Assembly: GCA_039881145.1 (NCBI GenBank)
Contig: JAYKKI010000088.1
Span: 2,643,501 to 2,707,500 of the forward strand
DNA length: 64,000 bases
DNA from: Druceiella hillmani
Lineage: Eukaryota > Arthropoda > Insecta > Lepidoptera > Hepialidae
Direction of reading: 5' to 3'
Of the stretch, positions 11,037 through 46,222 are shown piece after piece (the first letter of the stretch is position 1; every line of letters starts with the position of its first letter). The notes under the pieces are model-generated. The model was not told the origin of the DNA, made no database searches, and saw nothing but the letters and a program-made list of their open reading frames with translations. The position numbers were made by a program, and so were the translations under genes.

Positions 11037-11107
11037 GGTTATCTAGCCAAATGACAAAAACCGAACCTTTACAATTGCGTCATATCGGTCTGATCATCTG
11101 TCTCTCC
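11037..11107 (+). CDS. Weak candidate exon with ATG
   Basis: A 71-bp segment is preceded by a good acceptor ('tgctcctttttag') and followed by a GTAAGT donor. Only one phase is open. It reads L-S-S-Q then 'MTKTEPLQLRHIGLIICLS', which ends in a hydrophobic run. If not spliced, the frame continues 14 more codons as a hydrophobic segment before TGA. It lies about 240 bp from the divergent 10.6-kb exon, so a head-to-head pair is conceivable. I do not recognise the peptide, and a chance coincidence of splice-like sites is likely enough that this stays tentative. Confidence 0.2.
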
Positions 11108-11639
11108 GTAAGTTACAGCAGCATAGCTCTTTTCGTTTACGGCTGGCTGTGATGGTTTACAGCAAAATGTAGTTGCATCACATGATACAGAGAAATTAAG
11201 AAAACATATTTTCAAATAACTTAGCATTACATTTGTGTGAATACATAAATTGAAAAGTCCTTAGCCGGCTTCCGATCTCGAAGCCAATATGTTGGTTTAG
11301 AATCAATTGTTGGTTCGTGAGCTCTATCTGTGTAAGAGAAATTTTTGCTCAATACAAATCAAGTTGTTGGTTTCTTAGATTTACCTTAATTTGTTTCAAC
11401 CATTGTTTATGAAACTAAAGCTCTCACCAAGCAACAAATTTTTAAGATAAAAAAGCTTTCTCAAAGCTCTATTGAGTATTAATAGATTTAGCACATTTAC
11501 AGCAAATTTCAAGTAGATAACTCGTAAAACCTTTGAAACGCTCATTTTGGTGTTATTATATCATCATTATCATATCGTAATGATGTTATCATCTCAGAAG
11601 TAACTACATCGAAATAAAAATCACTGACACCTTGGTTTC

Positions 11640-15560: not shown

Positions 15561-16370
15561 ATTAAAGAGGAGGTAATTAAAGTACTAATTTTTTTTTAAC
15601 TTTATATTGTTATTATGGGGAATATAATTTTTTTTTATTTTAAATTGTACATTAAAAAATATTTCCTAAAAAATATGCGAAGATAGAGCATTCCCCCGCC
15701 CACTTATTTTCGAAACTACTAAACCAAAAAGTGTGTAATAAACGGGTCGATAAAGTCTAACTAGAAGTTTACAGGAAAACTATTATCCTATATCATTCGA
15801 AATGTCCCAAACTTTATAATTTTGACACATACACCGTGGTTTTACCATGTAAAAGGTACAATTAAAAATATATTTACGTTACGAAAAATTAATTTTTTTA
15901 AATATTGTAACGGAAATACTACTCTCATTTAACAGGTTTTATTATAAATATATTTGGCGTCAATTTTGCAGAAATTCGTTATTCACTATTAAATTCAACA
16001 AGATAGATAGAATCTTTACTAACAGCCCACCTGAAGATGTTGTAATACGACGAAACCTAGGTCGTGGTAAAGAACTTAAAGAAAGTAGAAATAATACTAC
16101 ATCACGTAGTTTCATTTAATTGTGAGGTTTTATTTTTTTTAACTGACTTAATTATAAGGGTGAAAAAACTAATAAATTAAACCGGTAAAATTCGAAGGGT
16201 TACGTTTTTGCTATTTCATCTACGGAATACTTATATTTTTATCATGTTCCTATTATCTTCTGTCCATTGGTAAGTCACAACATCAAGGCTCTTCCAAATG
16301 AAGACCAATTCTAATGAAATTTTATAGAGAGACGTAGTTGAATTACAAGAAAGCAGAGAAAAATATTTCT

Positions 16371-17345
16371 TAACTATTTTAAAGTATCGTATGTCGAACC
16401 TGGAATAAATATTTCTTTTACTCGTATTTCTCATCAATCTTAACTATTTTAAAGTATTGTATGTCGAACCTGGAATAAATATTTCTTTTACTCGTATTTC
16501 TCATCAATCTTAATTATTTTAAAGTATTGTATGTCGAACCTGGAATAAATATTTCTTTTACTCGTATTTCTCATCAATCTTAACTATGTTAAAGTATTAT
16601 ATGTCGAACCTGGAATAAATATTTCTTTTACTCGTATTTCTCATCAATCTTAATTATTTTAAAGTATTTTATGTCGAACCTGGAATAAATATTTCTTTTA
16701 CTCGTATTTCTCATCAATCTTAATTATTTTAAAGTATTGTATGTCGAACCTGGAATAAATATTTCTTTTACTCGTATTTCTCATCAATCTTAACTATGTT
16801 AAAGTATTGTATGTCGAACCTGGAATAAATATTTCTTTTACTCGTATTTCTCATCAATCTTAACTATGTTAAAGTATTATATGTCGAACCTGGAATAAAT
16901 ATTTCTTTTACTCGTATTTCTCATCAATCTTAATTATTTTAAAGTATTTTATGTCGAACCTGGAATAAATATTTCTTTTACTCGTATTTCTCATCAATCT
17001 TAATTATTTTAAAGTATTGTATGTCGAACCTGGAATAAATATTTCTTTTACTCGTATTTCTCATCAATCTTAACTATGTTAAAGTATTATATGTCGAACC
17101 TGGAATAAATATTTCTTTTACTCGTATTTTTCATCAATCTTAACTATTTTGAAGTATTATAAATCGATCCTGGAATAAATATTTTTACTTGTACTTCTCA
17201 TCTATCTTAACTATTTTAAAGTATTATATATCGAACTTAGAATAAATATTTCTGTTACCCGTATTTCTCATCAATCTTAAATATTTTGAAGTATTATAAA
17301 TCGATCCTGGAATAAATATTTCTTTTACTCCTATTTCTCATCGAG
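16371..17345. repeat. 70-bp tandem repeat with higher-order structure
   Basis: About 14 units of 70 bp, each with 'atgtcgaacctggaataaat' and 'tttactcgtatttctcatc'. Unit starts fall at 16441, 16511, 16581 and so on to 17141, then the array degrades. Diagnostic variants (taactatgtt/taattatttt and tattat/tatttt/tattgt) recur every four units, giving a 280-bp higher-order period between 16581 and about 17140. Minus-strand frames here are repeat translations. Confidence 0.92.
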
Positions 17346-22559: not shown

Positions 22560-23463
22560 AGTTTCGTTCTATATGATTGAACACACACAATCATACGCAG
22601 TCAAACAGATAAATCTGCATTGAATCTATCTAACAAACAATCGTTCTATATGATTGAACACACACAAACAATCATACGCAGTCAAACAGATAAATCTGCA
22701 TTGAAGGATACAGTAGGGTAAAAATATACAAGACAACCAAAGTTCAATGTTTATTTATTTTTTTATCTTTGTCATCTCTACTAAACACACACAAACAATC
22801 GTTCTATATGATTGAACACACACAAACAATCATACGCAGTCAAACAGATAAATCTGCATTGAAGGATACAGTAGGGTAAAAATATGCAAGACAACCAAAG
22901 TTCAATGTTCATTTATTTTTTTATCTTTGTCATCTCTACTAAAAACCAAAGCTCAATGTTTATTTATTTTTTTATCTTTGTCATCTCTACTAAACACACA
23001 CAAACAATCGTTCTATATGATTGAACACACACAAACAATCATACGCAGTCAAACAGATAAATCTGCATTGAAGGATACAGTAGGGTAAAAATATACAAGA
23101 CAACCAAAGTTCAATGTTTATTTATTTGTTTATCTTTGTCATCTCTACTAAACACACACAAACAATCGTTCTATATGATTGAACACACACAAACAATCAT
23201 ACGCAGTCAAACAGATAAATCTGCATTGAAGGATACAGTAGGGTAAAAATATACAAGACAACCAAAGTTCAATGTTTATTTATTTGTTTATCTTTGTCAT
23301 CTCTACTAAATACACACAAAGAATCGTTCTATATGATTGAACACACACAAACAATCATACGCAGTCAAACAGATAAATCTGCATTGAAGGATACAGTAGG
23401 GTAAAAATAAACAAGACAACCAAAGTTCAATGTTTATTTGTTTTTTTATCTTTGTCATCTCTA
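22560..23463. repeat. 158-bp tandem array beginning next to a stop codon, carrying poly(A)-signal motifs
   Basis: Copies marked by 'tcgttctatatgattgaac' start at 22564, 22641, 22799, 23008, 23166 and 23324. The regular spacing is 158 bp, with one truncated unit and one unit carrying a 51-bp internal duplication. Each full unit contains 'ttcaatgtttatttatt', which is AATAAA on the minus strand. The array abuts the minus-strand terminal exon at 23464-23619, so its first unit would serve as the 3'UTR of that gene. Confidence 0.9.
23433..23438 (-). promoter_or_regulatory. Candidate poly(A) signal AATAAA
   Basis: On the minus strand AATAAA lies about 26 nt after the TAG stop at 23464-23466. It is followed by the T/G-rich stretch 'cattgaactttggttgtctt'. 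The same motif recurs in each 158-bp array unit further downstream, so several alternative poly(A) sites are possible. Confidence 0.4.
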
Positions 23464-23619
23464 CTATGATCTTCCTCCTGACCTTTTATGGTCGTACATA
23501 TACGAAACGGCTTCAACAATACCCGAGATAACGATAGCAATGACGGTGGTAATTCGGCTTACCTGACGCAGCATCACATTTACCATTTCCCCTTGACGAC
23601 GGCTAGGTCCGACGCTTTG
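23464..23619 (-). CDS. Exon 4 (terminal) of a small type I membrane protein: membrane span and basic tail
   Basis: A minus-strand acceptor in a pyrimidine/C-rich context ('caacccaccccacag') opens a 52-codon phase-0 frame ending in TAG. The first 19 residues are polar ('SVGPSRRQGEMVNVMLRQ'). Then comes one hydrophobic segment ('ITTVIAIVISGIVEAV') and a basic tail ('DHKRSGGRS'), the classic layout of a single-pass protein ending in the cytoplasm. GC content is far above the AT-rich flanks. Only this phase is open. A strong internal donor, CAG followed by GTAAGC after residue 19 (exon 23563-23619, 57 nt, phase 0), offers an alternative form lacking the membrane span; no further exon was found for it. 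It joins in frame to the exons at 30.5, 34.6 and 40.2 kb. The protein family is not recognised. Confidence 0.6.
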   Translation of the reverse strand, partial: QSVGPSRRQGEMVNVMLRQVSRITTVIAIVISGIVEAVSYMYDHKRSGGRS

Positions 23620-24449
23620 CTGTGGGGTGGGTTGTTTAAATTTGTTTATTAATTATATACCTGTTGCTGATAACATTTAGTATATTTTCATTGAGTGAAA
23701 TTGTTTGTTTCGTTGAGCAAATAAAAAAAAATCTTGCAGAAAGCAAATAACTAACGTATTTAATGGGAAAGATGGTGTCAAGTACATGTCACATACAAAG
23801 TAGCTCTTGATATGGTTAATAAAATTTAACCGAATAATTTAACTTGAAAATTCAAACCATATAATAGCATCTAGACTTTTTTTTCAATTCGAAAACCCAT
23901 GATTGAAAATTAGATGAGAGCACGTTGCAAGTCAGTTTGAGGTTCAAAAATTATAAAAATAGTAAATAAAGCCTAAATGCTATTTCAAAAGATCTTTCCA
24001 GCTATATCTCACTTAATGGAAAATAATTTGACCCAATTTTAATTGTATGAGAAAACGCATTATATTTTTTTGTATTTTTTATCTGAAAGCACGCAGATTT
24101 TCATATGAAGCACGTTGGTCTAAAACTGGAGAAACTATACGATTGTGACAAACAGATAAAACGATATTATAAGGTTTCATTAGTATTTCCATGTAAAATA
24201 CACAAAGATTTTCATTTTATAAAAACTGAATCATTTTTAGAACTAAATGTTAAAAATGAAAGCTCTTGGGGAACATTTCAGACGTCAGTTTATTACTTAC
24301 CCTTCTATGTCTTTACATATTTAATCTTGAAATATCAATATTTACTATGTCAAACCTTTATTTCATCATAGAATAGGTACAATATATGTGCTATTATGAA
24401 CAGCCTGCAATTTCTCTGGTTTCAATCCACTTAGTTTTTCTTTCATTTT
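23620..24449. other. Intron 3 of the minus-strand gene, AT-rich
   Basis: No repeat array. The 88-codon plus-strand frame at 24105-24371 is AT-driven and has no splice or family support. Confidence 0.4.
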
Positions 24450-24780
24450 TATAGGACATCGGGGAACTTCCTAATTTCCCTAATAAGGAAAAATCCTTCT
24501 TTTGCAACTTCGACAATTTTTCGATTCGCAATGTTTTTCGTCTACAGTCATTCTCTCATTCCTGAGAATGGTGAGAATGTGAGGAGCAAATCTTTTAGAA
24601 TATTGATGCAATCTGGTATCATAACATTCGGCACTAGCATCACATCTTGAACGCGTCAATTTTTTTCATCTCTGTAGTATTTAGGGTCTAGTGCTTGAGA
24701 CCCTAAAGACACTTTTCATTAGGGTAACCTGAGGGTGGAACGGATATTTGAGCTGGGAAACTTATCGTTACCTATTACTC
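24450..24780. repeat. Probable interspersed-element relic
   Basis: It is less AT-rich than its flanks, with short internal symmetry ('cattctctcattcctgagaa', 'agggtctagtgcttgagacc'). No frame is preserved. It is probably an old transposon piece inside the intron. Confidence 0.25.
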
Positions 24781-25689
24781 CGCTAAATGATCGTTTTGTT
24801 CGCTCTGCATAGTAAAAAAAATCTGTAGTCAATCGAATGTTCCCTTCAGATTTTTGAAGTCCAATGTAATTCATGTTTTTCTAGTAACATTTTTTTTCAA
24901 ACCACTCTTTTTCCTTACTTTCATTATCTCCCTCTTGGATGCTATCGCAATACCATGTTGGTGAAATTATAGTTTGGGATATTACCTTTGTACTTGATGT
25001 TTACAGTTTTTAAAAAATATATAAAAACCACCTGCCACATCAAAAGCCTAATTCAAAAACATCTTAATTTTGAAGAAATTTAATTTTTAAAAATTCGTGG
25101 AAATTGATGGAATAATTTGAATATAATTTCTCAACCTTCGCCTTTCCATTTTTTGACAGTCTTAATTTAATTTTCTGAAATATGCGTACTTCCAATGTTA
25201 TAAATTTAACATTAATGAATACATTTAACCAAAATTAATCCAAATATTTAAATTCAAACATAAATAAAAGATACACTAGACCCTCATACGTCCACGTACA
25301 TACTCATTACTGTAACCTTCCATCGAAAATAAGTTAAGTTAAAGTTACCTTATTTGAGACACTTCTTTTATCACGGCTACTCTGAAATATATAAAGAATA
25401 CATTAATACATCAGTCGATGTTCATTACTTATTTGTTCGTTACATTTAAAGCTTCGACCATTCATATATATGATCGTTAAGTCATATATAACAGTTCATA
25501 ATATATTAATGAAACTTAAGACTTCTTTAGACAGTTGTACTAAAGAAGTGTACAGGCTAGAAAAGAACACATAACTATACTGGTATTAATACCTAGTATT
25601 TTTATATAGTTATTATACGAACTTTAATCAGGAATCCAATCACTGGATACTGTAGAACTGGTAGTTATTGCGTTACATGATAACATTGG

Positions 25690-25890
25690 AATGACCATTT
25701 CCGGCATCGTAGTGTGTTGCGTTGATTGGCTTACGACCTTCGACGGTGTGGCCCACCGCGGGGTCCAGGTTCTATTCACAATCTCTCGTGGAGCAAGTCT
25801 GGAGCGGTGTTCGTAATCATGCAGCTAAATGCAACAGATTAGCCACGGTCAACAACCCCAATAGTTGGAGAAGCTGTTATGAGCATTTCT
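25690..25890 (+). pseudogene. Possible Tc1/pogo-type transposase C-terminal relic
   Basis: A plus-strand frame reads 'SLVEQVWSGVRNHAAKCNRL' and, a few residues on, 'SWRSCYEHFL' then stop. This resembles the C-terminal part of IS630/Tc1/pogo-type transposases, where 'P-x-E-x-x-W...V..hv.....' is followed some 20 residues later by 'W..c..hv'. The catalytic part is missing. The block is GC-richer than its flanks. Assignment rests on this short pattern only. Confidence 0.3.
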
Positions 25891-26073
25891 TGTAATGATA
25901 TGCGCATTGACCTATGTCAGTAGATTGGGACATAATTTTAATGATGATGACTCTGATGATCTTTTAGAAAGATTGCCTTTTGAATTAAACCAACTTAAAC
26001 CTAGTTTTAAACAAATGGTAAAACTATTCGCTTTAACCCCACTTTTATCTAACGAGGTTGACGTTTGAGAATT

Positions 26074-26560
26074 TGGTGATTGTAATATTGGAGTAATGCT
26101 TTCGATATTGCAATCTTTTAAGGGTTCAGTTAGTAACTGTATAGTTACTATTTACCAAAAGGACTACAATGCAATATACTAGTTATGGTAAAAAATCTGT
26201 GTGTTCATATATTTCATGAGTTCAGGAAACTTAAAATAGGATACTGAAAAGAACAAAACACTTTTTAACATGTTTGTATGTAGGTCTGTTTTAGAATTAA
26301 ACGGATTGATATCAGTGTATATGGTCATTGTGATATTGGAGTATAGCTTTCTATATTGTTACCTATTGATGATTTTGTTAGTAACGGATTAGTTACTATT
26401 TACCAACAGGGCTATAATTCAATATAGTAATTGTGGTTAAAAATCAGCATTTTTAAATATTTTATAAGTAATTAGTTCAGAAAATTACAAATATACTGTA
26501 GACAAGAATAAAACACTTTTTAAAATGTCTGTACGTAGGTCTGTTTGTCAGTTTTTTTGC
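26074..26560. repeat. Tandem duplication, about 248-bp unit
   Basis: The piece starting 'tgtaatattggagtaatgct' at 26081 recurs at 26329 as 'tgtgatattggagtatagct'. 'agttactatttaccaa' and 'acaaaacactttttaa' are also duplicated in order. The copies are strongly diverged, so the duplication is old. Confidence 0.7.
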
Positions 26561-28000
26561 TTACTTACTGTTGAATTACTTTAAAAATTTCATTCAAGTT
26601 TCATCACACTTTAAACAAAAGAGTGTGTAAAAATAGTTTAGTTCGCGTTTAAAAAGTAAAAAAATGCCAAAAAGTTATCGCTTTGGTCCTCAGAAAAGAC
26701 TAAATAACAATTATTCTATCCAGAAATGATGAGATTTTTTTAGAATATGGAAAACGTCAGATATTATTAAAAGGTTTTGAGTTAGTTACACTTACAGTAC
26801 AAAACTTCTTGAGTATTGTAACTTACTTCACATGTTACGATTATAATATAACAACACTTTTGTGTCAATGAAACACATGCCCTAATGAAAAGATTAAAAT
26901 AGTCTCACTGCGCACCGCATGGTGCCGTGTAGAGGTCTGCAATCCTAGTATTTTTCATACTAAGTACACTGTGACGAGTACGTAAAAATAACAGGTACGT
27001 ATACTTCTTACAAAATACTAGGACCGCATCCTCGCTTGTCAAATGTTCAGTTAGAAATACGCAATATATACACTTGACGTAAAGTATTCAATATTTTTTG
27101 GCTTGTTAAATGCCGGGATTTACAGAATTGTCTATCTATACAAATTAATACAATATACTCGTATGTTATTGGAAACTTTACTTCATAGTTTATATGAGCT
27201 TTAGACTGTCTCCTATAGATGATATTGTCTACAAATTCAGTTAGTTAAAATGAAGGTCAAAATGTAAATAAGCAATATACTGGCGGCATATTTTTACGGC
27301 TGGCGTATTTTAAAGTTTTCTATTGCAATATGGACATTAATTAATATGTGCAATCTCTCTTTTAATTTTATATCACTATTTAATCACTATACATAATGTA
27401 CTCGCACACATTTTGGTCTCTGACTTATTTGAATCAAACTGAATAAAAAAATAGAAAAATAAAATCTAATGGTTATTGTATAAAATGCAAGTTGAAAGCT
27501 AAAAATCACAACAAATATAACACATTTATTAACAATTTTTCTGAAAAAAAAAATTATTTTTTTACATGTACTAATTATTTCTATTCTTATAAAACCTTTT
27601 ATCACGGACATTCAGAGAATATGATTGGAACATATGCGCGCAAAATATCGACATATAATGGAGTTTAGACGGACTTCCGAATATCTAGTATGAGACAAGC
27701 ACAAAATGCAACTATATTGAATCTAGCCTGCTGAAGAATATATGTTTCGAATACGAAACTATTACATGGAAATATTCTGTTTCTTTCTTTCTTAAGATGG
27801 TATTTATACGATGAACGACATAATTTTCATAAACCATAATAGCTTTGTTAATTTTGCTCTTATAATAGTTGAGTCATTACGAACAGCGACAGAATGCTTG
27901 CATATTTTGTAGATACCTGCGGAGTATCATAAGTTAATATGCCCGTTCCAAGCAAATACTTTGTACTCATGCGATTTACAGTATATTCGCCCCATATCTA
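26561..28000. other. Intronic AT-rich sequence
   Basis: The only structure noted is a short inverted pair at about 26943/27016 ('tcctagtatttt' and 'aaaatactagga'). No supported gene; the 74-codon minus-strand frame at 27387 is low-complexity. Confidence 0.4.
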
Positions 28001-28780
28001 ATGCCGTATACATACTATCGCCCACATTGTGGCACGTTCACATATTCGCCGAGGCTAGCCAAACGCGATTGTGTGAACAGTGTGTTTGTGCTCAGCCAAT
28101 CTCATCTCAGGCGCTCGCCTCGATGTTGATTTTTTGAATCCGAGTGAAAGAAATGTGATAGACGTTGAAATCGATATGGTATTCATGTTGGGTTTAATGA
28201 ACTTATGCAATTATTTTGAATTTATAAGTGCATTGTTTCGACCCACCCTTTTACATAAGGGTGAAAATGGTTTTGGAACATTTGAAGTACAGCTTAGTGC
28301 AAAGTGAGAACAAAAACGTGTTGACAACAACAGGGTTCCATTTGAATCTTTTGGATAGGGAACCTTAAAAAGGGATTCTCTCATGTGCATGGTTCCGTAA
28401 CAAAATATTTTTAAAAATTGGTGCAGAATTAGAATACCTATATCAACCGATTTGTTTACAAATCGACATTATAAAAAAGCTTCACAGGCGGATAATTTTA
28501 AATTAATTAGGTACTCTGTAATTATGAAAGCTATCTCGTTCTATCCCAGTGATAAACTATCACTGAACGTCTTCCTTTCTTTATTTTCCTTATATATAAG
28601 ATTCATATAATTATTTAAGTTCATTGAGACACGTGGATGTGGCATCTATTTCAAAGTTTTTCTTGTTCATCGAACATGTGAATAGACACTCGTGGTCGTA
28701 TTCGTGCCCAAAATTCATATCGAATGTTCATCGAAACTCTCGCGTGAGTATGTGAACTAGGCGTCAGCATTTAAAAGTGA
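28001..28780. mobile_element. Relic of a dispersed element
   Basis: The 28020-28160 block ('gttcacatattcgccgaggc', 'cgcgattgtgtgaacagtgt') and the 28680-28760 block ('gaatgttcatcgaaactctc', 'gcgtgagtatgtgaactagg') share an attenuated motif in opposite orientation, as element ends would. Between them, 'cagggttccatttgaatc' and 'ggttccgtaacaaaat' match the ggttcc family seen at 15.4 and 39.8 kb. A 75-codon plus-strand frame at 28080 is not supported. Confidence 0.35.
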
Positions 28781-30469
28781 CGAGAATAAATCGGGCACGA
28801 TGTGGCTTAAACATTTCTTTAGTATTTGAAGCCTCTTTTAATATATAAAGGAATAAATAAGGAAAATGATACATCGTAGAAATTCGTCTAAATAGAAGTC
28901 TATACAAATACACTATTTATATAGAGACATATAATAAAACTACAAACTTCGTTTGACAAAATATTTGCCAAAAATATAATTGGCGGAAGGAAGGACATGA
29001 AGGATACGCGATAGAATGCAATAAAATATTTTTTTCGAGTTTTTGTCTGTTTGCCTGAATGTACAAAATGCACAATGATTGAAATTTTGACCAATTTTTT
29101 TTCAATTTGACCAAATTTTTGAAATTTTGGCCCATAAAAACTACTAACTTAATTTTAATGTAGTATAAGTCATAGAAAATAATAATATAGTCATAGAAAT
29201 AATCTTGAAGTAATATTTAATTTTTATTTCATCCCAATCGGTTCACTCAATCAGAAGATACGTAAATTATTTTTTTCAAAGATTCATATACTTTACCTTA
29301 GTTCAACATTAAAGTGCCTAGCTACTCGATGATAAGTTGTGTTATGCACATATGTATATCAATAGGTGAGATAACGTGTATTTTTAGATTTTATTTATAT
29401 TTTAGCAAAACTGCTAAATATTTTATTTTTGCATTTTAATATATTTATAAAGTTATAGATACTTCGTTTAGAAAGTCGCGGGCACAACTATGGTCTAGCC
29501 TTTTTCAGCGTTAAAATTTCGAGTATATTTACGAAATTTTTCAAACGTGTGACTCCGTCTGACTTTTCCGTAATTGAAATGGAGGTTGTCAATTTTTATC
29601 CTGCAAATTTGACATTTCCTATTAGTAAAATAATGGTGTATACTAGTATTTACAACATTATTTATGGCGAAAGTTTCTTAAGTTAATGTTTTGATTATAT
29701 GTATAGTTTAATAATATTGTGGGTATAATAATAATGAGCTTTGAGTCTGATTTTGAGTCTGTTTTGATTTTGGGTCGTGAAGTGATCGAATGTATATTTA
29801 TGTCAATCATATTTTAACTGTCAAATTTTTTTTCACAAAAATTCTCTAATGAAATGGAATCGAGTAGAGTTTCTAAATTTGAGACGTTATAAAAATACTC
29901 CCATAATTTCCCGGAGAAATGTTTGTTTTAACAGCCTATTGAGGAGCCAAGCGATAACTTTTTGAGGTTTTTTTTTATTTTTCGCGTTGAGAACAAATTT
30001 AATTTTTTTAAACACCCTCATTAAAATTAAGTTTTCATTAATGTATTTATTACAGTGCAGAAAAGAAAAGTTCATCTGAAAAGAAAAGCTTATCAGAAAA
30101 GTTCTTTTCTATATTGTATTTAAACTGCTTTATCAACAGTTCTAACTTTAGTTTTAAATTTGAAACTCTTGGAAGTAAATTTTCGCGGTCGGAAAAGTCC
30201 TTTCGTTTTAACTCACTACAATCCATCAAAAATTAATTTTAGCCAAAACATACTTCCGTAGTATCGTCATTTCTTGAAAATAGTGGGTATTGTTAGTCAT
30301 TGCGATGTTGAGGAAAATTTGTACGAGCTACAGCTAACGTGTTCCCTCAGTTACTTAAACAGCATTTTTACTAACATCCTCCTGAAAAAGCTGCTGATTG
30401 TTCTTTGCTAATATTTTTGAAAATTTGTTTGATTAAGCAAAGGTTAAAGTAATTTATTAATGGATTACC
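28781..30469. other. Intron 3 continued, AT-rich, nothing recognised
   Basis: Frames at 28900, 28917 and 29887 on the minus strand are AT-driven. A weak dispersed-repeat phrase ('catcccaatcggttcactca') is present at 29230. Confidence 0.4.
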
Positions 30470-30556
30470 ACGACCACATCGTCGTAAGGAGAGCTACTGA
30501 AGGAGAACGCGGTGTCCACTTTCTTCTGCCTCACGGGCTTAGGCCGCTCTATGTCC
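30470..30556 (-). CDS. Exon 3 of the small type I membrane protein: extracellular, basic then serine-rich
   Basis: On the minus strand the acceptor 'gttctaacag' precedes 29 codons in the only open phase. They read 'DIERPKPVRQKKVDTAFSF' followed by three serines and 'PYDDVVV'. The exon ends GTG at a GTAATC donor, phase 0. If that donor is not used, the frame adds V-I-H and stops at TAA (30458-30460), which would give a secreted 81-residue form. The paired basic residues (KK) and the P-rich start suggest a flexible, possibly processed, extracellular stretch. GC content is about twice that of the flanks. The donor is weaker than at the other exons, so the two alternative ends are both open. Confidence 0.6.
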
Positions 30557-30919
30557 TGTTAGAACAAATTTATCATGCAATTATTCCTTGTTTGTATAAT
30601 ATTTTGTCTTGAATTAAGTATAAATTATAATAATGTACGAGCTACCTAAACGAGTTCATTAAATCCATCAAAGGTGAAAGTTTCATTAATATAGTCTGTT
30701 TTAACACATCCACTAAGTGGTCAAATTTAAAATATCAGCGATACTCAACGTGTTAAATAATTAGTATTATAAATTACTAATTATGTATCAGCTTTTAATA
30801 TTGTTGATAAATGTGTATATATTATGACTATTTCTTATTTCCCCAAGAAATATCCGTTACTTACCCTAAATTACTTACCCGTCCGTTACTTACCCTATTA
30901 CTAGTAAAAAAACGTTTTG
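30557..30919. other. Intron 2, proximal part
   Basis: AT-rich. At 30855-30900 'cgttacttaccctaaatt' recurs as a short imperfect repeat. No gene. Confidence 0.4.
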
Positions 30920-31175
30920 GCGACGAATATTCGATCTCAAAGATGAATATTCGATCTCAAAAAAGAATATTCGATCTTAAAGATGAATATTCAATCTTGA
31001 AGATGAATATTCTGTGCCGAATTTTTATCTTCGAGATCGAATAATGAATATTCGATCTCGAAGATAAAAATTCGGTCTCAAAAAAAATATACGATCCTAA
31101 AGACGAATATTCGATCTTGACGATGAATATTCTGTGTTTCGCTCTCAAAGATGAATATTCGATCTCAAGAATTTT
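30920..31175. repeat. Short-unit repeat of 'gaatattcgatctcaaagat', direct and inverted
   Basis: About ten 20-21-bp units of the type 'gaatattcgatctcaaagat' occur in both orientations. The frames on both strands rich in serine, isoleucine, phenylalanine, glutamate and arginine are repeat translations. The array contains the perfect hairpin at 31017-31075. Confidence 0.85.
31017..31075. repeat. Perfect 27-bp hairpin with 5-nt loop
   Basis: The arm 31017-31043 ('ccgaatttttatcttcgaga' plus 'tcgaata') is followed by the loop 'atgaa' and its exact reverse complement at 31049-31075. It arose within the inverted units of the surrounding repeat. As RNA from either strand it would form a stable stem. 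Confidence 0.93.
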
Positions 31176-31850
31176 ATTGCTATCTGTACTCAATGACAAT
31201 ATATTCAGAATATATTAAAAACACAGACAGGTTCAGCACTAAAGGTAATGTAAACCGATAGAGATTAAAGCGTTTGTATGTGTTCTGATTCTCGGGTAAC
31301 TTTTGACTAGTGACTTTCGAGACATTGTTTAGTCTAGTTGTCCTCGTACTACTTGATATTTTTCTCAATATTTCTTCTAATTAGTTATTTATTAACGCTC
31401 TGGATACTGCTTGCTCCATAAGGGAGATAGAGAAAGTGAAGAAAAAAGGAAAATGCAATAGAGTTGAAGATAGAAGTCATTTATTTAGGGTGCACATAAT
31501 TCATTATTTAATGCTTTGGTTAAAAATTGTTGGGAATCCTCTATCAAACACCCTATTTATTAAAAATAAATTAAAGAGACATTTTGCTTTTTACAAAAAG
31601 CCATCTGGTCATGTCTATCAGTTTGATATTGTTTATTTGTTGCATGTATATTTTTTATTTCTACTGAAGACCACCTAAACTCGCAAATGTCAAAATATTG
31701 ATATCTTCGTCATACTACGCAAAGAAATAAAAAAAAATAATTTTGTTTCTCGTAGCATATAATTACGGTTCTGCTTCTAACTACAGTGCTGAAACTATAT
31801 GAATGAAAATATTCAAGATTCTTTACAGCATTTAAATTATTATAATACTA

Positions 31851-32480
31851 ATGACTAACAGCACCAAGACTCCGATATTAGTTCAGAATGAACCGCTAAA
31901 ATATACAGAAACATATACATACCGTGGCAAACAAATAGGATTTGATCGAAATTGCAACTACCTGGAAGTAACTAGTAGAGTACAACTTACTTGGAACAAA
32001 TACTGGAGTTTAAAGGACATATTCAAGAGCAATATATCTACTAAGCTCAAAACTAAAGTTTTAAACTCCAGTCTACTACCTTGCCTATGGATGTCAAACA
32101 TTGAAATTCAACAACCATATAAAAAGTAGGATAATCACATGCCAGAGAGGAATAAAGCGCAGTTTGCTACAGATAAGGAAATTACAAAACTTAGACACTC
32201 TAAAATTAGACAAACTACCAAAGCAATTGCAAATTGCAAAGCAAAATGGAAATGGGTTGGACTTATAGCACGCCTTCAAGAACAGAGATGGATGAAAAAA
32301 GTAACAACATGGAAGGGCCCTCAAGGAAAAAGGAAGAGGGGAGACCTCATATTAGATGGGAGGAAGACATTACAAAAATAGCAGACTCAAATTGGATTAG
32401 TTTAGTCCAATGACTAGAGACGATTGGTTATCTTTGGAGGAGGCCTTGACCTGTCGAGAGGTTCTTGCAAATATGTAAAT
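31851..32480 (+). pseudogene. RTE-type LINE reverse transcriptase, C-terminal fragment
   Basis: The first frame (31851-32129) reads 'YTETYTYRGKQIGFDRN', 'WNKYWSLKDIFKSNISTKLK' and 'LNSSLLPCLWM', matching the thumb/C-terminal part of RTE/BovB-like endonuclease-reverse transcriptases ('YLG..I...', 'W..fWsLk.i.k...', 'lPcl.yG'). After a frameshift, 32139-32381 continues 'KWKWVGLIARLQEQRWMKKV' and 'WKGPQGKRKRG', the conserved 'W.W.GHi.R....RW...v..W.prggkR.rGrP' region. A third frame then gives 'DDWLSLEEALTCREV', equivalent to the final 'W..leea'. The element is 5'-truncated and has several frameshifts, so it is dead. It sits in intron 2 of the minus-strand gene. Confidence 0.85.
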
Positions 32481-32867
32481 AACGCATACTTAAATTACAT
32501 TATACATATTATTTAATTTACTATGTATATAATATCCACATTTGTGTAAAAAATCGATTTTGTAAACTTAGCTATTTGCGAGAAATTAAAAGGCTTTTTT
32601 ATTTTTATTAATTTATAATACAGTTGGGGTTTAAATATAGAAAGTTGGGAAAACTATAAACATGCAACAACGATGATGAAGTCATGCGTTAACTTCTTGC
32701 AGTTTGACGTGTTTTCTAATAACACTTTTACAAATATGCTTATTCAAACACCAGAACAAAAACTGAAACGGAGATTTTTTATTTACACACGCCATTATAA
32801 AAACGGAAAAACCCAATTTAAAAGTAATGAAATTTTATTCTTTCCTGGTTAATAAATAAATTTGCAT
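32481..32867. other. Intronic AT-rich sequence
   Basis: Nothing recognised between the LINE fragment and the palindrome. Confidence 0.4.
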
Positions 32868-33102
32868 ATTCAGTATTTAGTGTTACTAAGAACGTAAATA
32901 AAAATTCATTTTGTTTTTAAACTATTGTACAAATCAATTTTTTATCGAAAACTATTTTTTATTAAATACATTGTATGTAATGTATATTATTACATACGAT
33001 GTATTTAACAAAAATAATTTTCGGTAAAAAATTTAATTCAAAAATAGTTTCCAAACAAAATGAATTTTTATTTATATTCTTGGTAACACTAAATACTGAA
33101 TA
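32868..33102. mobile_element. Palindromic MITE-like element, 112-bp arms
   Basis: The left arm 32868-32979 begins 'tattcagtatttagtgttac' and the right arm 32991-33102 ends 'gtaacactaaatactgaata'. The arms are imperfect reverse complements throughout and are separated by 11 bp. The size and near-total palindromy fit a foldback or MITE insertion. No target-site duplication could be fixed by eye. Confidence 0.85.
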
Positions 33103-33694
33103 CGCAAGTGAAAACATGAAATGATATTTAAAAAAACATACCAAGAAAACCGAAAACATTAAATAAGAACTAAGGATCGTGTAAAAAAAGGTTAAACATT
33201 TTAACGCTTTTCATAGCTGTGGCATTTTTCAAATCGATTTTTCTTATTAAAATAATCACGACTGGATATTTGTTTATTAAATACTGTTATTTTTATATAT
33301 ATTCTTTAACTTAAAAAAAGAAAAGTAGTGAAATTATCATTGATTCTTAACTGTATTTATACCATAGTAATATTACAGTAAAAAACAATCAATTATATGT
33401 ACATAGTAATACTATAGTCAAAAACAAAAAATATAATAACGACAAAAAGACAATTAATATATTCAATGACACAAGAGTATATAACGCTGCCACACTTCAA
33501 TAAGCTTAGTCTTTAAATCAAACTCTCTTACAAACGTGGTCATTCGCTTCAGCAATTGAATATCATGCAAAGTAGAGAATACCGACATAAAAACAACTCT
33601 GTTCTATATGCTGATATTAGATAAAAGTATGACTATACGAGAGCGAGAAGTAAGAACATGGGAGCAAGAGAAAGAAGTCTTCGTATCTAGTATA
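33103..33694. other. Intronic AT-rich sequence
   Basis: No gene or array. Fragments such as 'catagtaatattacagt' are repeated loosely around 33360-33420. Confidence 0.35.
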
Positions 33695-34437
33695 CGAAGA
33701 GTGAGAGTTTTCCCAACAAAATAGAGTTCAAAACTTTTCCAATTATAAAAAGAAAATAAATCTTGTCAATTAAATTTCACTACTCTGCTCAAAAATATGG
33801 TAGCAGTGAGAGTTTTCCAAACAAAATAGAGTTCAAAACTTTTCCATTTATAAAAAAGGAAATAAATCTTGTCAATTAAATTTCACTACTCTGCTCAAAA
33901 ATATGGTAGCAGTGAGAATTTTTCCAACAAAATAGAGTTCAAAACTTTTCCATTTATAAAAAAGAAAATAAATCTTGTCAATTAAATTTCACTACTCTGC
34001 TCAAAAATATGGTAGCAGTGAGAATTTTTCCAACAAAATAGAGTTCAAAACTTTTCCATTTATAAAAAAGAAAATAAATCTTGTCAATTAAATTTCACTA
34101 CTCTGCTCAAAAATATGGTAGCAGTGAGAGTTTTCCAAATAAAATAGAGTCCAAAACTTTTCCATTTATAAAAAAGGAAATAAATCTTCTCAATTAAATT
34201 TCACTACTCTGCTCAAAAATATGGTAGCAGTGAGAGTTTTTCAAACAAAATAGAGTCCAAAACTTTTCCATTTATACAAAAGGAAATAAATCTTGTCAAT
34301 TAAATTTCTCTTCTCTGTTCAAAAATATGGTAGCAGTGAGAGTTTACCCAACAAAATAGAGTCCAAAACTTTTCCATTTATAAAAAAGAAAATAAATCTT
34401 GTCAATTAAATTTCTCTTCTCTGTTCAAAAATTTGGC
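33695..34437. repeat. 106-bp tandem repeat
   Basis: Seven units, each with 'ggtagcagtgagagttttcc', 'aaaatagagttcaaaactt' and 'cttgtcaattaaatttc'. Landmarks fall exactly 106 bp apart at 33801, 33907, 34013, 34119, 34225 and 34331. High identity implies recent expansion. It lies 160 bp downstream of exon 2 in intron 2 of the minus-strand gene. Confidence 0.95.
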
Positions 34438-34594
34438 AACAAAACATAGCCAGGAAAAAACCTTGTAACGAAAAAATAGCGTTTTTGAGAAATAATTCTT
34501 TCACTGGTAGAAATATTTATAGACTCTTGGCAACTAAATGAAAATAATACCCATGCTAATCCCTAACTAAACATGTAGGTTTTTAAAATCTCAC

Positions 34595-34675
34595 CCGCGG
34601 ATAACCAGAGTTCGGAAGCGGGATGAAAATATTGGCGCTGCTTCCCATTGTATCATCGTATTCAGCTTCGAATAC
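34595..34675 (-). CDS. Exon 2 of the small type I membrane protein: ectodomain start
   Basis: On the minus strand an acceptor ('acttatggtttccag') opens 27 codons in phase 0. They read 'VFEAEYDDTMGSSANIFIP' then 'LPNSGYPR', ending CGG at a GTGAGA donor, also phase 0. The exon is acidic at the start and has a G/S/N/P-rich linker-like second half, with no cysteine. Its GC content is far higher than the flanking intron and it has exactly 81 nt between good splice sites. It follows the signal-peptide exon at 40.2 kb, so it encodes the mature N-terminus. If unspliced, the frame would end four codons later. Confidence 0.65.
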
Positions 34676-35999
34676 CTGGAAACCATAAGTGAGTTGTATG
34701 TTGTAGCATAAATATAATAAAATATTTTATTTATTACCTTTTATGTATAGTACATATGGCGGACTTATTGCTACATGAGTGAACTCTACCAGTCAACCAA
34801 AAACATTTAGTCAATAAAACATTTTAGTCAATTATGTACTTTTAAAGTCAGGAAAATTGTAATTAATATTACAAATACATCATTCGAAATTGTTAACATT
34901 TCTTTCTACAAATTATTATGTTCTCGCATCAGTGATTTATTTAGATTTATCATGAATTTTTCTGCTTTTAAATTCTTAGAAGTCGTAATGTTAAAAATTA
35001 TTATAAATATCAAACAATATAAAATTTCTAGACATTTTATAACGACAATAAAAAGCAATAAGCATAATCACAAACGCACTGAAATTATATTATTATGTTT
35101 AAATCTAAGGAAAATAATGGAAAAAATTATTAAGTAGGTTTAGAGCTCCCATTAAGAGGGTTCCATTTTCAACATGTAAAGACATTGCCTAAAGTTCGCG
35201 ATATTTTGTATAAATATCGCGAGCCTCTCAAAAACTATGCAATTTTAATTGATTGCTACAGCTCTCCACTAAATTTCAGATATGCATGATTTTGACTACA
35301 GTAGTACTGTGTATAGAAAAAAGGGCACAATTTTATGGACGAAATCTCTTTATGTTAAAAAAATTCTATGAAAATATTTTTGACAGGAATACGTCTATAA
35401 ATTTGCTACCATACGGGGGCAATCCAAAAAACCTAATGATAACAAAATCGGGAGATATAGTTTGGCATTGCAGTTTCGAATCTATCCTCTACATCAAAAA
35501 TTAAATTAACCACTGGATAGCTAAAGGATCAATGAATTCATTACGATAAGCGAGAATAGTGACCCATTGCGCGCGGTGGAGGGGGAAGCGCCGCCATTTG
35601 AGGTTATTTTGCTGCGTATCGAGATTTGCAATTAGTATAACTTTTGATTCGGAAAAGCTACAATGTTTGTTTAAGTTTTAATCGTCAGCTGTCGTCAAAA
35701 TCTATCAATTGTATATAAAACATTAGTTTAATGTAGTGACAGTGAATATAATAAGGTGTTAGAATAAAAAAATATTATCAAAAATATATAATGTCGGCCT
35801 ATACGCTATTGTAACACGATAATTATTTGTTTCCTTGCTTTTATCCTAAATACATAAATAAAAATATTTTATTTACAAAATATAACCCGTTACATAGAAG
35901 TATTCACGTACAACACACGGCCGTGCCCATGACACAGTCACACCCAATTTTTTTTTACATCTTCGTAGCTCTTTTAATTGATATCCCTCACGACAAATA
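34676..35999. other. Intron 1, distal part, with a GC-rich speck
   Basis: A short GC-rich block at 35560-35610 ('ccattgcgcgcggtggaggg', 'ggaagcgccgccatttgagg') looks like the end of a dispersed element. The 83-codon frame at 35253 and the 61-codon frame at 34952 are not supported. Confidence 0.35.
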
Positions 36000-37490
36000 A
36001 AAACGTAAAAAATTGCTACATTTTTCACTTCTCAAATTTCCACATAAATATTTTTGAGTGCTGATAATTGCGATATATGAAATTTGACATGTTCTATCAC
36101 CATGTCTAATTTCAAGTTCCTGTATAAAATTTTTGTTGTGAACCAATTGAGAATTTTAATCTGGAGAAATTTTTCATTCGCCTACTTTAAAATTTCCATA
36201 TAAATATTTTAAGTACTGACTATTGAAATATATTATGTTTAATATACATTATCACTATGGAAAAATTTCAAATTATAATTTTAATTTTCAATTAAAATTG
36301 CAAATTATAATTATAATTGGGAAATTATAATTTTTGCGTTGTGTGAATTGAGATCCTTAACTGGAGGAATTTTAATTAATTCATTTGCCTCTTTTAGTAT
36401 TCCAGTATAAATATTTTTGAGCACGGACTATTGAAATATGCGAAGGTTAATATGCTCTATCACTATGCCGAATTTCAAATTCCCATATATAATTTTTGCT
36501 GTGAATTAACTGAGATCCTCATATGGAGAAATTTTGATTAATTCATTTGCCTCCTTTAATATTTCCATATGAATATTTTTGAGTACTAACTATTGAAGTA
36601 TATGAAAGTTAATATGCTCTATCACTATGCCGAATTTCAAATTCCCGTACATAATTTTTGCTGTGAATTAACTGAGATCCTCATATGGAGAAATTTTGAT
36701 TAATTAATTTGCCTCCTTTAATATTTCCATATGAATATTTTTGAGTACTAACTATTGAACTATATGAAAGTTAATTTGCTCTATCACTGTGCCGAATTTC
36801 AAATTCCCGTATATAATTTTTGCTGTGAATTAATCGAGATCCTAATCTGGAAAAATTTTGATTAATTCATTTGCCTCCTTTAATATTTCCATATGAATAT
36901 TTTTGAGTACTAACTATTGAAATATATGAAAGTTAATATGCTCTATCACTATGCCGAATTTCAAATTCCCGTATATAATTTTTGCTGTGAATTAATTGAA
37001 ACCTTTATCTGGAGAAATTCTTCATTTGGCTCCTTTAATATTTCCTTATAAATATTATTGAGTACTAACTATTAAAATATGCGAGGGTTAATATGCTCTA
37101 TCACTACGCTGAATTTCAAATTCCAGTATATAATTTTTGTTCTGATTAATTAAAATCCTCATTTTCCTCCTTTAAAATTTCATAATAAATATATTTGAGT
37201 TCTGACTATTGAAATATTTGAGAATATACATTTTATATGTTCTATGCATTTTATATTCCTGCATATAATGCTCTATACATTTTATATTCCTGCATATAAT
37301 TTTTGTTGTGAAATAAATTAGATCTGTAGAAATTTCTATAACTTCATTTGTCCCCTCTAAAATTTCTACATATATAATTTTGTGCGCTGTGTTTTGAAAT
37401 ATATGGAAGCTAATACCCTTTATTATTATGTCGAATTTCAAGTTTCTTTATATAAATTCTACTCTGTATTCATTAAGGTTTCATCTTGGA
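36000..37490. repeat. 162-bp tandem repeat, degrading at both ends
   Basis: Units carry 'gctctatcactatgccgaat', 'ttcaaattcccgtatataat', 'tttttgagtactaactattg' and 'ttcatttgcctcctttaata'. The 'ctatcac' landmark falls at 36457, 36619, 36781 and 36943 (162 bp apart), then 37098. More diverged copies extend to about 36000 and 37490. It lies within intron 1. Confidence 0.9.
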
Positions 37491-39814
37491 AATGTATATA
37501 GTTCAGCTAATAGGTTTTAAATTCTAAAAACTGTGATAAAAGAAAGCACGAGTGAATACCGACAGTGAGAATTAAAAATATAAAACTATTATTAAAATTG
37601 AAATAAATAATGTAATAACAATTCTGTAAATTAATTCTTATTTTATACTTATTAGATAATAATAATAAAACTGTATAATAAGTTTTTACTGATAAGAGTT
37701 CTTTTGCATACTATTTTAGGAGTTAGTCTTTAAACTAATACGACACAGACTTTTTTGCTTTCATAAAATGGATTTAAACCAGCACTCTTTTAGTTTCATT
37801 TCAAGTGGCAACATTAAGCTAAGATGCCAATGAATTTCCATTTAGCAATGTCCAGTTTAGGTGTTATGTTATCTATTTCCTTCTTCTACTAAATATTTCT
37901 TGTCCATTTTACTCAAAGAAATTGTTTTGTCACCGCGTTTGTGACTCACGCTTCACGTGTCTATATATAACTATGTCCAGATATTCCACACATGATACAT
38001 ACGACAATCAAATTTAACACCAATAATTGAAAACAACGCAGACTTCTTGTCCTTCGGTGTCCGATTGAACGAAAATTATTAGTTACTACATTATTTTTGA
38101 AAAAACAAATTTAATTCGAAATGGTGAAAGAAAGAACGCCAAAATGATGAAAGAACATTCGATAGAAATTGAAATGTTTTTTTAAAGACACGAGGCACAT
38201 AAGTAAAGGGATAAAATGAAAAACCGGTAAATAGATGCGCACTGGCAAACCGGTAAATAGAACACATAAGTAAAGCAATAAAATGTAAAATCGGTAAATA
38301 GATGCTATTATTTTATGACTAAGGACTCAAATGTTAGTCCAATATTATTAATATAGTGGGAGGTCGTACACTCTGGTCATTGCGTGTGAGTGGCTGTGGT
38401 GGTGTGGGATATGGTGGTTAAAAGTGAATGACTGAATATTTTCCACCAATCACTAAACTCCTTTAATTGAATGTACTAGAATGAGTGAGATTATACTAGA
38501 ATATCCTCAAATGTATAAAATTAATCAGATCATAAAAATCGAGGATGCTCTGGAAAGTTAGAGAAACATTGTGTATAAGTATAATAGAATTAGTGAGAAT
38601 GTACTAGAATATGTGCTAGAATAAACTGAACCTGAAGAACCGAGAATGTTCTCAAATATTCGAAGATATTCTCAGCTAGTCAGTAATATGAACGGTTTAG
38701 AGAATCTTTAATTTTGTGTCTAATAAAATAGGTCATATTTGACTTCCGACATGTTAGATAACGATCATACGCATGATCGTTAACGGCAAGAGATGAATAT
38801 GACCAAATGTAATATCCTTTCATGAAAATCTGGTATATTTGAAAAACAAGCATAGAATTGAGTAACACATTTATAGTTTTATTTATTTATGTTTTTGACT
38901 ATTAACCGATCGATAGACCTCAGAATGAAAACATATGGAGTTTTAATGCTAGGAACAGAGGCCTTTAAAACATTCGGGAAAGAGAAATGCTAAGGATTTT
39001 TCTTGGAATATTCTGTGGGAATAGACAATGAAGAAAAGAACAAATACACTAATGTTTAAAAATTTGTTGAACATAAAAAAATTCATTGTCACAGAAATTA
39101 CAAGAAACAGAATTGAATAGTTGCAGTATGTTCAAGAAATGATCCAGAGTGGAATGATTCAGAGACTACTTCAAGGGAAATCAGGAAACTTACGATTCAT
39201 GGTCACACCCGAGATACACAGGCTATTCAAAGTAACTTAAAAGGCTAAAAACCTAAGGAAAAATCCAAAAACAGACGGAGAAATAAAAAAAATCTTTAAA
39301 AACTGGGAGTTTCCACTTGAAAAAGTAACCAACAGAAACGGATGGCCTAAAATATCAAGGAATGTCAGGGCTCTATAAGTACTGTAGCATTAGAAAACTT
39401 ATTATTTTCTTCTAGGTAATTAGTTACATTAAATATGACTTTAAACGCGCAAAGTTAATCTGGTTTTAATATTTTGTAAGAAATTTATAGGCGTCGACAG
39501 TGAAAAAAACCAATGTTTCAATAACCCGTTCAATCAATTCAACGAATATAAAGTTTAATTCAAAATAGATATAATCCGAGATTCATCCACGTCTTTATGT
39601 GCCGAAAACAATTTCACTAGAACGGAAAACTTGACACGTTTAAATTTTCCAATGTGAAGTTTCATCACGAACCGGAAATATGGATTAGGTGAGACGTTAT
39701 GAAAAAATATGAACAGGCGGAAAATCGTAATTCTACAAGTGAAAAATTCTTATTCAATTTTTCATCTTTGTTAAAATAAAGAATTGGATTTTGATTTAGT
39801 AGCGTTTTATAGTT
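37491..39814. other. Intron 1 sequence with minor repeats
   Basis: At 38220-38310 'aaaccggtaaatagatgc' recurs three times about 30-70 bp apart. At 38460-38620 'agaatgagtgagattatact'-like pieces recur. The 39100-39380 segment is less AT-rich, but every frame is interrupted. No gene seen. Confidence 0.35.
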
Positions 39815-40010
39815 CGTACCTCAAAAGGAAAAAAAATGGAGTCCTTAAAAGATCATTCGCCCGTCTGTCCGTCTCTCTGTAATACTCATCTTTCTCAGAA
39901 ACCGTTTAACGTAGAAACTTGAAAGTCGCCATTGTTATAAAATATATTAAACCCCATATGATTAATACTACTGCCGGGTCGCTTTTAATATTAAAAAAAA
40001 AATTTTAAAA
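39815..40010 (+). mobile_element. Dispersed repeat of the 'gtacctcaaaagg...gtctgtccgtct' type
   Basis: 'tcgtacctcaaaaggaaaaa', 'ggagtccttaaaagatcatt', 'cgcccgtctgtccgtctctc' and 'ctcagaaaccgtttaacgta' follow in the order of a very common lepidopteran non-autonomous repeat. It is the best copy of the family also seen at 15.4 and 41.7 kb. Confidence 0.65.
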
Positions 40011-40137
40011 ACTTTCCAGAGTCTTGGGTGAAACTTGAAAGTATGTATATACGTATAGAGAATAATAATTGGCCAAAGTGAACAAAAACACTAAGTTTGA
40101 AGATATGTTGAAATAGGATTAAAAATGATCAACTCAC

Positions 40138-40203
40138 GTGACCCTGTCCAATTACAAAGACCGATACGAAGGTCAAAGTACAGAACTCCACTATGAACGA
40201 CAT
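40138..40203 (-). CDS. Exon 1 (coding) of the small type I membrane protein: signal peptide
   Basis: On the minus strand ATG at 40203 opens 22 codons, 'MSFIVEFCTLTFVSVFVIGQ' then G-H, ending CAC at a strong GTGAGT donor in phase 0. The peptide is a typical eukaryotic signal sequence: a short polar N-terminus, a hydrophobic core of about 14 residues and a small-residue end, with cleavage likely near G-Q-G. Seven bases before the ATG there is an acceptor-like 'aaattattccag', so an untranslated exon further upstream is likely (the 59.7-kb segment is a candidate). Exons 2 to 4 at 34.6, 30.5 and 23.5 kb continue in phase 0, giving a predicted 129-residue protein. I do not recognise the family. Confidence 0.6.
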
Positions 40204-43246: not shown

Positions 43247-44975
43247 TGAAACAAATTTATCTCGAAAAAATTGGAAACTGTTTCAATAGAAATAAGAGAC
43301 TCAAAAAATTGGAAAATGTTTCAATAGAAATAATAGGCTCAAAAAATTGAAAATTGTTTCAATAGAAATAATAGACTCAAAAAATTGGAAACTGTTTCAA
43401 TAGAAATAATAGGCACAAAAAATTGGAAACTGTTTCAATAGAAATGATAGGCTCAAAAAATTGGAAACTGTTTCAATAGAAATAATAGGCACAAAAAATT
43501 GGAAACTGTTTCAATAGAAATGATAGGCTCAAAAAATTGGAAACTGTTTCAATAGAAATAATAGGCTCAAAAAACTGGAAACTGTTTCAATAGAAATAAG
43601 AGGCTCAAAAAATTGAAAACTGTTTCAATAGAAATAATAGGCTCAAAAAATTGGAAACTGTTTCAATAGAAATAATAGGCACAAAAAATTGGAAACTGTT
43701 TCAATAGAAATAATAGACTCAAAAAATTGGAAACTGTTTCAATAGAAATAATAGGCACAAAAAATTGGAAACTGTTTCAATAGAAATGATAGGCTCAAAA
43801 AATTGGAAACTGTTTCAATAGAAATAATAGGCTCAAAAAATTGGAAACTGTTTCAATAGAAATAAGAGGCTCAAAAAATTGGAAACTGTTTCAATAGAAA
43901 TAATAGGCTCAAAAAATTGGAAACTGTTTCAATAGAAATAAGAGGCTCAAAAAATTGAAAATTGTTTCAATAGAAATAATAGACTCAAAAAATTGGAAAC
44001 TGTTTCAATAGAAATAATAGGCACAAAAATTGGAAACTATTTCAATAGAAATGATAGGCTCAAAAAATTGGAAACTGTTTCAATAGAAATAAGAGGCTCA
44101 AAAAATTGGAAACTGTTTCAATAGAAATAATAGGCTCAAAAAATTGGAAACTGTTTCAATAGAAATAAGAGGCTCAAAAAATTGAAAATTGTTTCAATAG
44201 AAATAATAGACTCAAAAAATTGGAAACTGTTTCAATAGAAATAATAGGCACAAAAAATTGGAAACTGTTTCAATAGAAATGATAGGCTCAAAAAATTGGA
44301 AACTGTTTCAATAGAAATAATAGGCTCAAAAAATTGGAAACTGTTTCAATAGAAATAAGAGGCTCAAAAAATTGGAAACTGTTTCAATAGAAATAATAGG
44401 CTCAAAAAATTGGAAACTGTTTCAATAGAAATAAGAGGCTCAAAAAATTGGAAACTGTTTCAGTTGAAATAATTGGCTCAAAAAATTGGAAACTGTTTCA
44501 ATAGAAATAATAGGCTCAAAAAATTGAAAACTATTTCAATAGAAATAATAGGCTAAAAAAATTGGAAACTGTTTCAATAGAAATAATAGGCTCAAACAAT
44601 TGGAAACTGTTTCAATAGAAATGATAGGCTCAACAAATTGGAAACTGTTTCAATAGAAATAATAGGCTCAAAAAATTGGAAATTGTTTCAATAGAAATAA
44701 GAGGCTCAAAAAATTGGAAACTGTTTCAATAGAAATGACAGGCTCAAAAAATTGGAAAATGTTTCAATAGAAATAAGAATCTCAAAAAATTGGAAACTGT
44801 TTCAATAGAAATGATAGACACAAAAAAGTGGACACTGTTTCAATAGAAATGATAGGCTCAAAAAATTGGAGACTGTTTCAATAGAAATAATAGGCTCAAA
44901 AAGTTGGAAACTGTTTCAATAGAAATAATAGGCTCAAAAAATTGGAAACTTTTTCAATAGAAATAAGAGGCTCTC
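43247..44975. repeat. 38-bp minisatellite, about 45 copies, with higher-order pattern
   Basis: The unit is 'ctcaaaaaattggaaactgt' followed by 'ttcaatagaaataatagg'. Copies are nearly identical. Variants (aggcac, agactc, agaggctc, aatgatagg, ttgaaaattg) recur in the same order, giving a block of about seven units (266 bp) repeated between about 43700 and 44450, one copy lacking a unit. There are no spacers of unrelated sequence. It lies about 1.1 kb upstream of the igloo-like exon. Confidence 0.95.
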
Positions 44976-46114: not shown

Positions 46115-46222
46115 GAAGAAGAGCTAGATATAGATCTGACTGATCCAGATCTCAACAAGGCTGCGACTAAGATTCAAGCTTCGTTCAGGGGTCACAAAGT
46201 GCGCAAGGAGGTCGAGAACTAA
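46115..46222 (+). CDS. Last coding exon of an IQ-motif calmodulin-binding protein (igloo/neuromodulin-like)
   Basis: After the acceptor 'aattttccatattttccag', 35 codons run to TAA. They start 'EEELDIDLTDPDLNKA' and contain 'ATKIQASFRGHKVRKE', a textbook IQ motif (I-Q-x-x-x-R-G-x-x-x-R). This is the signature of neuromodulin (GAP-43), neurogranin and insect igloo, small mostly disordered proteins that bind apo-calmodulin, are often membrane-associated and occur in neurons. The acidic lead-in before the IQ helix is also usual for the group. The exon starts in phase 0 if read from the first base. The earlier exons lie outside what I could find and may be upstream of the window or hidden in repeats. 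Family assignment is firm; the exact orthologue (igl) is likely but rests on one exon. Confidence 0.85.
   Translation, partial: EEELDIDLTDPDLNKAATKIQASFRGHKVRKEVEN
46115..46222 (+). other. igl: Gene-symbol note for the igloo-like exon
   Basis: In insects the single neuromodulin/neurogranin-type gene is igloo (igl), which carries one or more IQ motifs of the type seen here. The symbol is proposed from the motif and its acidic context, not from an alignment, and other single-IQ insect proteins cannot be excluded. Confidence 0.5.

Follow-up and report, generated by a model that had tools for sequence, protein, structure and literature searches.

The window analysed here comprises 64,000 nucleotides of the genome of the ghost moth Druceiella hillmani (assembly GCA_039881145.1, contig JAYKKI010000088.1, positions 2,643,501 to 2,707,500). 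Its minus strand carries four short segments which, judging from the sequence, are very probably exons of one real protein-coding gene; this estimate is a matter of judgement and was not computed. The gene spans about 17 kb; its introns measure about 5.5, 4.0 and 6.8 kb, and none of its exons exceeds 52 codons. The GC contents of exons 1–4 are 44, 48, 56 and 47%, as against 26–34% in the 200 nt on each side and 30.2% in the window. The features of the locus are collected in Table 1.

Table 1. Parts of the four-exon gene and its neighbours, in window coordinates (a slash marks a splice junction).
Feature	Position	Strand	Description
Exon 1, coding part	40138-40203	-	MSFIVEFCTLTFVSVFVIGQGH, signal-peptide-like; donor CAC/gtgagt; initial-exon score 8.8
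Exon 2	34595-34675	-	VFEAEYDDTMGSSANIFIPLPNSGYPR, phase 0 to 0; score 16.1, rank 2 among the window's minus-strand internal candidates
Exon 3 (corrected by one base)	30469-30555	-	DIERPKPVRQKKVDTAFSFSSSPYDDVVV, phase 0 to 0; score 16.8, rank 1 minus-strand internal candidate
Exon 4, proximal part	23563-23619	-	QSVGPSRRQGEMVNVMLRQ; terminates at the strong donor-like site CGTCAG/gtaagc; GC 54%
Exon 4, distal part	23464-23562	-	VSRITTVIAIVISGIVEAVSYMYDHKRSGGRS, then stop; marginal membrane span and basic tail
Tandem array, 158-bp unit and variants	22633-23466	-	Starts at the stop codon; contains AATAAA motifs
Neighbouring terminal exon with IQ motif, outside the gene	46115-46222	+	PF00612, E 2.2e-07
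Second IQ exon, left flank	-68061 to -67958	+	PF00612, E 1.5e-06

When the four exons are joined, the minus-strand frame is open over 129 residues and all three junctions are in phase 0. This requires a correction to the original prediction, in which exon 3 was placed one base off, at 30470-30556; those limits include the G of the acceptor AG, breaking the frame and leaving two stops in exon 3. With the correction, the four minus-strand exons and their phase-0 junctions are borne out, as is the statement that no exon exceeds 52 codons. The claim that each segment has only one open phase does not hold, exon 1 being open in phases 0 and 2 and exon 2 in phases 0 and 1. Neither an internal stop nor a frameshift interrupts the corrected frame, which opens with a start codon in good context and a signal-like exon and closes with a stop. 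A candidate acceptor, ttccag/GTCCAAAATG, would place the start of exon 1 at 40210 and imply an intron in the 5′ untranslated region (UTR). At the opposite end, the tandem array is probably the 3′ UTR, provided that the stop at 23464 is real. A 30-codon candidate (25735-25824, minus strand), running from phase 0 to phase 0 and having weak splice sites, lies between exons 3 and 4; it is perhaps a cassette exon or a mobile-element relic.

Exons were scored over all acceptor–donor pairs exceeding loose cut-offs, using generic splice matrices and codon log-odds relative to the window's own composition. The top three internal candidates of the minus strand are exon 3 (16.8), exon 2 (16.1) and exon 4 (14.6), whereas the maximum in 30 order-2 simulated windows is 14.0; against simulated sequence matched in composition, exons 2–4 are conspicuous. 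The value for exon 4 relies on a later donor, 23483; if the donor at 23563 is used instead, the parts of this exon total about 12.6, which is under the simulated maximum. The complete chain, composed of exon 1 as an initial exon (8.8), exons 2 and 3, and exon 4 as a terminal exon (11.9), scores 53.6, compared with 37.3 for the best chain in 300 order-3 simulated windows. GC as high as that of exon 2 is found in 1.9% of equal-length windows in 264 kb, and as high as that of exon 3 in 0.2%. The locus combines an open, phase-consistent chain and splice sites with a score better than simulation, but it is not separated from the real-DNA control.

Several results weigh against a real gene. In that control (four 50-kb flank segments, both strands), the best chains score 44.9–102.4, and four of the eight exceed 53.6; two of these four owe their scores to a retrotransposon (reverse-transcriptase) frame and to a Q-rich coding-like exon. 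On the minus strand of the window itself, the top-scoring chain (55.5) is not the one described here and finishes in a GC-rich patch near 11.7 kb; the best chain on the plus strand scores 47.9. The coding model uses generic amino-acid and splice frequencies and is not trained on this genome. The original prediction had pointed to exon GC far above the flanks, which is the case for all four exons, but the GC of exon 1 is unremarkable, as 6.2% of windows of its length in 264 kb have GC as high. The splice sites, which it described as good, are uneven in quality: the exon 3 donor GTG/gtaatc (0.5) and the exon 4 acceptor (-0.03) are weak by the generic matrix.

Since real-DNA controls score similarly or higher, copy number is a better discriminator than chain score. 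The genome searched comprises 2,586,002,920 bases in 181 contigs. Residues 1-97, compared with this 2.586-Gb genome at E up to 10, matched solely the four exons themselves (four candidates, four scored). In DNA searches of the genome, the whole 156-nt exon 4 gave one match, as did exon 3 with its flanks, and each exon has one local match within 264 kb. Many copies are expected of a transposable-element fragment, and exon 4, exon 3 with its flanks and residues 1-97 do not behave as one. The exon ranking, the matching phases, the GC content and the finding of no other copy as far as searched give reasonable support to a real four-exon gene.

No family had been recognised for the product, and this agrees with the searches made here of a protein database, Pfam and the PDB. 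Two protein-database searches gave no candidate sharing three words, a weak negative, as the database's coverage of insect nuclear genes is uncalibrated. The Pfam search, at E up to 10, gave a single sub-threshold match, Maf_C (E 0.048), and no chain was matched in a PDB sequence search.

Exon 1 would encode a signal peptide, by which the product would enter the endoplasmic reticulum (ER). Within residues 1-30, the best 10-residue hydropathy is 2.46, and small residues occupy a possible cleavage point, VIGQG/H; this N-terminus is without a basic n-region and has a glutamate at position 6. Cysteines are absent from the mature part, which is short and probably disordered. The proposed membrane span, ITTVIAIVISGIVEAVSYM, lies within residues 98-129, encoded by the distal part of exon 4, and has a Kyte–Doolittle value of 1.93 over 19 residues. 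Over the same 19 residues, its unweighted apparent insertion energy is about +2.7 kcal/mol, largely because of a glutamate inside the span; a 13-residue core (apparent ΔG -1.2 kcal/mol) is the sole favourable part. The span is marginal, which counts against a tethered product. Shuffling the mature part 5000 times produced an equally hydrophobic stretch in 62 cases, and T-rich DNA is prone to encode runs of hydrophobic residues; for these reasons, the topology, which had been put forward as an argument against chance, is modest as independent evidence. The joined frame reads as a signal-like start, a cysteine-free part, a hydrophobic segment and a basic tail, as in the type I membrane reading proposed earlier, but the topology itself is not established, the span being marginal and located downstream of a strong donor.

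This donor, CGTCAG/GTAAGC, is the strongest donor-like site in the gene (score 5.84) and directly precedes the span, which lies wholly downstream of it. A secreted form of the product is possible on this account, and the distal part of exon 4 is either the true 3′ end of the coding sequence or else the beginning of an intron. Donor-like sites scoring at least 5.8 in 264 kb are unevenly distributed, with one on the plus strand and eight on the minus strand; three of the eight (-38926, -40897 and -41130) resemble one another in the sequence upstream and have the appearance of repeat copies.

The 12.4-kb gap downstream of exon 4 yielded no convincing further exon. Of 32 phase-0 candidates for a membrane-span exon in the interval from 23562 to 11147, two are hydrophobic; both overlap tandem repeats, with scores of -10.3 and -14.4. 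Mini-introns of 80, 85 and 102 nt from the exon 4 donor are unlikely, as their acceptors score -2.4, -1.2 and -3.3. A terminal exon at 11069-11146, encoding PAVNEKSYAAVTYGETDDQTDMTQL and a stop, was the basis of a 122-residue secreted model and was dropped as mostly dispersed repeat. It had a plausible acceptor, phase 0 and an AATAAA motif 63 nt past the stop, and its score was equalled in 4 of 300 simulated 12.4-kb gaps; the 200-kb flanks contain, on both strands, 26 phase-0 terminal candidates scoring at least as high. The repeat, at about 11027-11119, gave 158 first-look candidates in the genome, of which 40 were scored and all 40 matched, 39 of them non-self at 74–86% identity. This exon is a warning, as it had one match in 264 kb and was exposed solely by the whole-genome copy check.

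The principal alternative, unlikely yet to be taken seriously, retains the same gene but ends exon 4 at 23563: the apparent span would result from reading into an intron, and the product would be processed and purely secreted, with a last exon that the search did not find. The donor itself argues for it: the two strands of 264 kb contain only nine sites scoring 5.8 or more, and in random sequence of 47% GC such sites occur at 0.046 per kb, giving a 156-nt exon a chance of about 0.7% of containing one. Past the donor, GC is down from 54 to 43%, and the third-position GC excess of exons 1 and 3 is lacking, although exon 2 and the proximal portion of exon 4 do not show it either. The dibasic sites RQKK/V and SRR/Q could make the product a propeptide. 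Also on its side are acceptors in the tandem array, splicing to which would bring the frame to a stop after a few more residues (one, with a score of 1.9, gives IYLFDCV and a stop). Against it, the 99 nt past the donor are open, coding-like (4.9 log units) and GC-rich, their 43% being equalled by 4.9% of windows, and the search from 23562 to the next candidate gene, at about 10.7 kb, turned up no convincing phase-0 exon, the best candidate being the mostly repeat-derived 11069-11146. On balance, a read-through end in at least some transcripts is somewhat likelier and use of the donor about even. As a matter of judgement rather than computation, at least some transcripts are reasonably likely to give a membrane-tethered end, and the chance that the internal donor is used is put at even.

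That the segments are four unrelated patches of repeat-rich non-coding DNA, GC-rich and free of stops, whose edges resemble splice sites by chance, is improbable. Chains of similar or higher score from real flanking DNA, together with several weak junction scores, speak for such an origin; however, the segments agree in strand, order and phase, exons 2–4 (the last with its later donor) outscore all 30 simulated windows, and, unlike the patch at 11027-11119, they are not repeat copies as far as searched. It is more improbable still that the locus is the remnant of a gene no longer making protein, or part of a longer gene with missed exons. Such a longer gene might include the 25735-25824 candidate as an additional cassette exon, but the corrected frame, uninterrupted from its good-context start and signal-like exon to the stop at the far end, argues against either version.

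The two plus-strand IQ exons that flank the gene have matching phase and are, we infer, neighbouring exons of one gene; they look igloo/neurogranin-like. The four-exon gene appears to lie antisense in the last intron of this gene, about 114 kb in length. Titles and opening lines of abstracts in the literature on igloo nesting contained nothing relevant.

The best explanation, held with fair confidence, is that the four segments are exons of one real ghost moth protein-coding gene, antisense in the igloo-like intron, with the read-through, tethered end the likeliest. The gene would be transcribed antisense within the apparent last, ~114-kb intron, and the signal peptide of exon 1 would route the product into the ER. 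Ribosomes would most likely read the last exon through to the stop at 23464, yielding a short hydrophobic segment by which the protein would be tethered, with its basic tail inside; alternative splicing at CGTCAG/GTAAGC would remove the segment and free the protein. That exon 4 acts as a switch of this kind in an orphan gene antisense in a giant igloo intron, with read-through giving a tethered form and splicing from the phase-0 donor a secreted one, is a rather doubtful proposal. Last exons that yield either secreted or membrane-bound products are already known as a mode of regulation, which makes the general interest modest.

Comparison with known systems gives resemblances, and membership of the product in either the type I membrane class or the propeptide class is not established. 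As a topological class, type I single-pass proteins with a short ectodomain share with it a signal-like N-terminus, one hydrophobic segment near the C-terminus and basic residues behind this segment; the segment here differs in bearing a glutamate and being marginal, and the Pfam match is at best sub-threshold. Insect propeptide (neuropeptide-like) precursors are likewise short, with a signal-like start, a cysteine-free mature part and the dibasic pairs KK and RR. In contrast to them, the product has no amidation site, and no named peptide was recognised in it; residues 23-97 include 9 K/R in 75 (hand count), for which about one dibasic pair is expected from composition. Lineage-restricted insect orphan genes similarly have short exons, a secretory signal and no second copy or homologue found; the orphan status of the gene described here is putative.

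A lineage-restricted secreted or surface protein seems the likeliest role. Overall, this is probably a real but ordinary small orphan gene, perhaps lineage-restricted, its membrane end being unproven. If real, it adds to an early-branching moth family one more small gene of the secretory pathway, probably restricted to its lineage. It would be invisible to ATG-to-stop scans, and predictors without RNA data may miss it too.

Other coding-like features surround the gene. An exon within 10584-10747 has a signal-like start, MRSIKMSSKILIYLVLEMIYCSAQEQISL (10584-10670, minus strand), and a phase-0 donor; with its surroundings, it has one genome match. This second candidate gene possibly continues 16 kb downstream as an acidic coding-like stretch in the left flank (-5972 to -5544). 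Its protein search gave 270 candidates, none at E up to 1, in a database whose coverage of insect nuclear genes is uncalibrated. In the right flank, a third signal-like first exon, MTSIITFGLFTCALLASALGNQQS, with a phase-0 donor, is present at 124412-124483 (minus strand), and the minus-strand region 96218-124483 also contains a phase-0 exon, KPAWLDEEWDNPDAPKPVPIP, and a long Q-rich exon. These right-flank exons are perhaps a cluster of secreted-protein genes.

The window also contains repeats. A 38-bp tandem repeat occupies 43265-44973 (45 copies, 93% matches), and other large tandem arrays are located at 16368-17342, 33700-34436 and 36326-37162. A plus-strand frame at 62215-62574 contains a helicase-like stretch, GKGQAYVALSRIRSLDGLVITDL, and is presumably a Helitron remnant.

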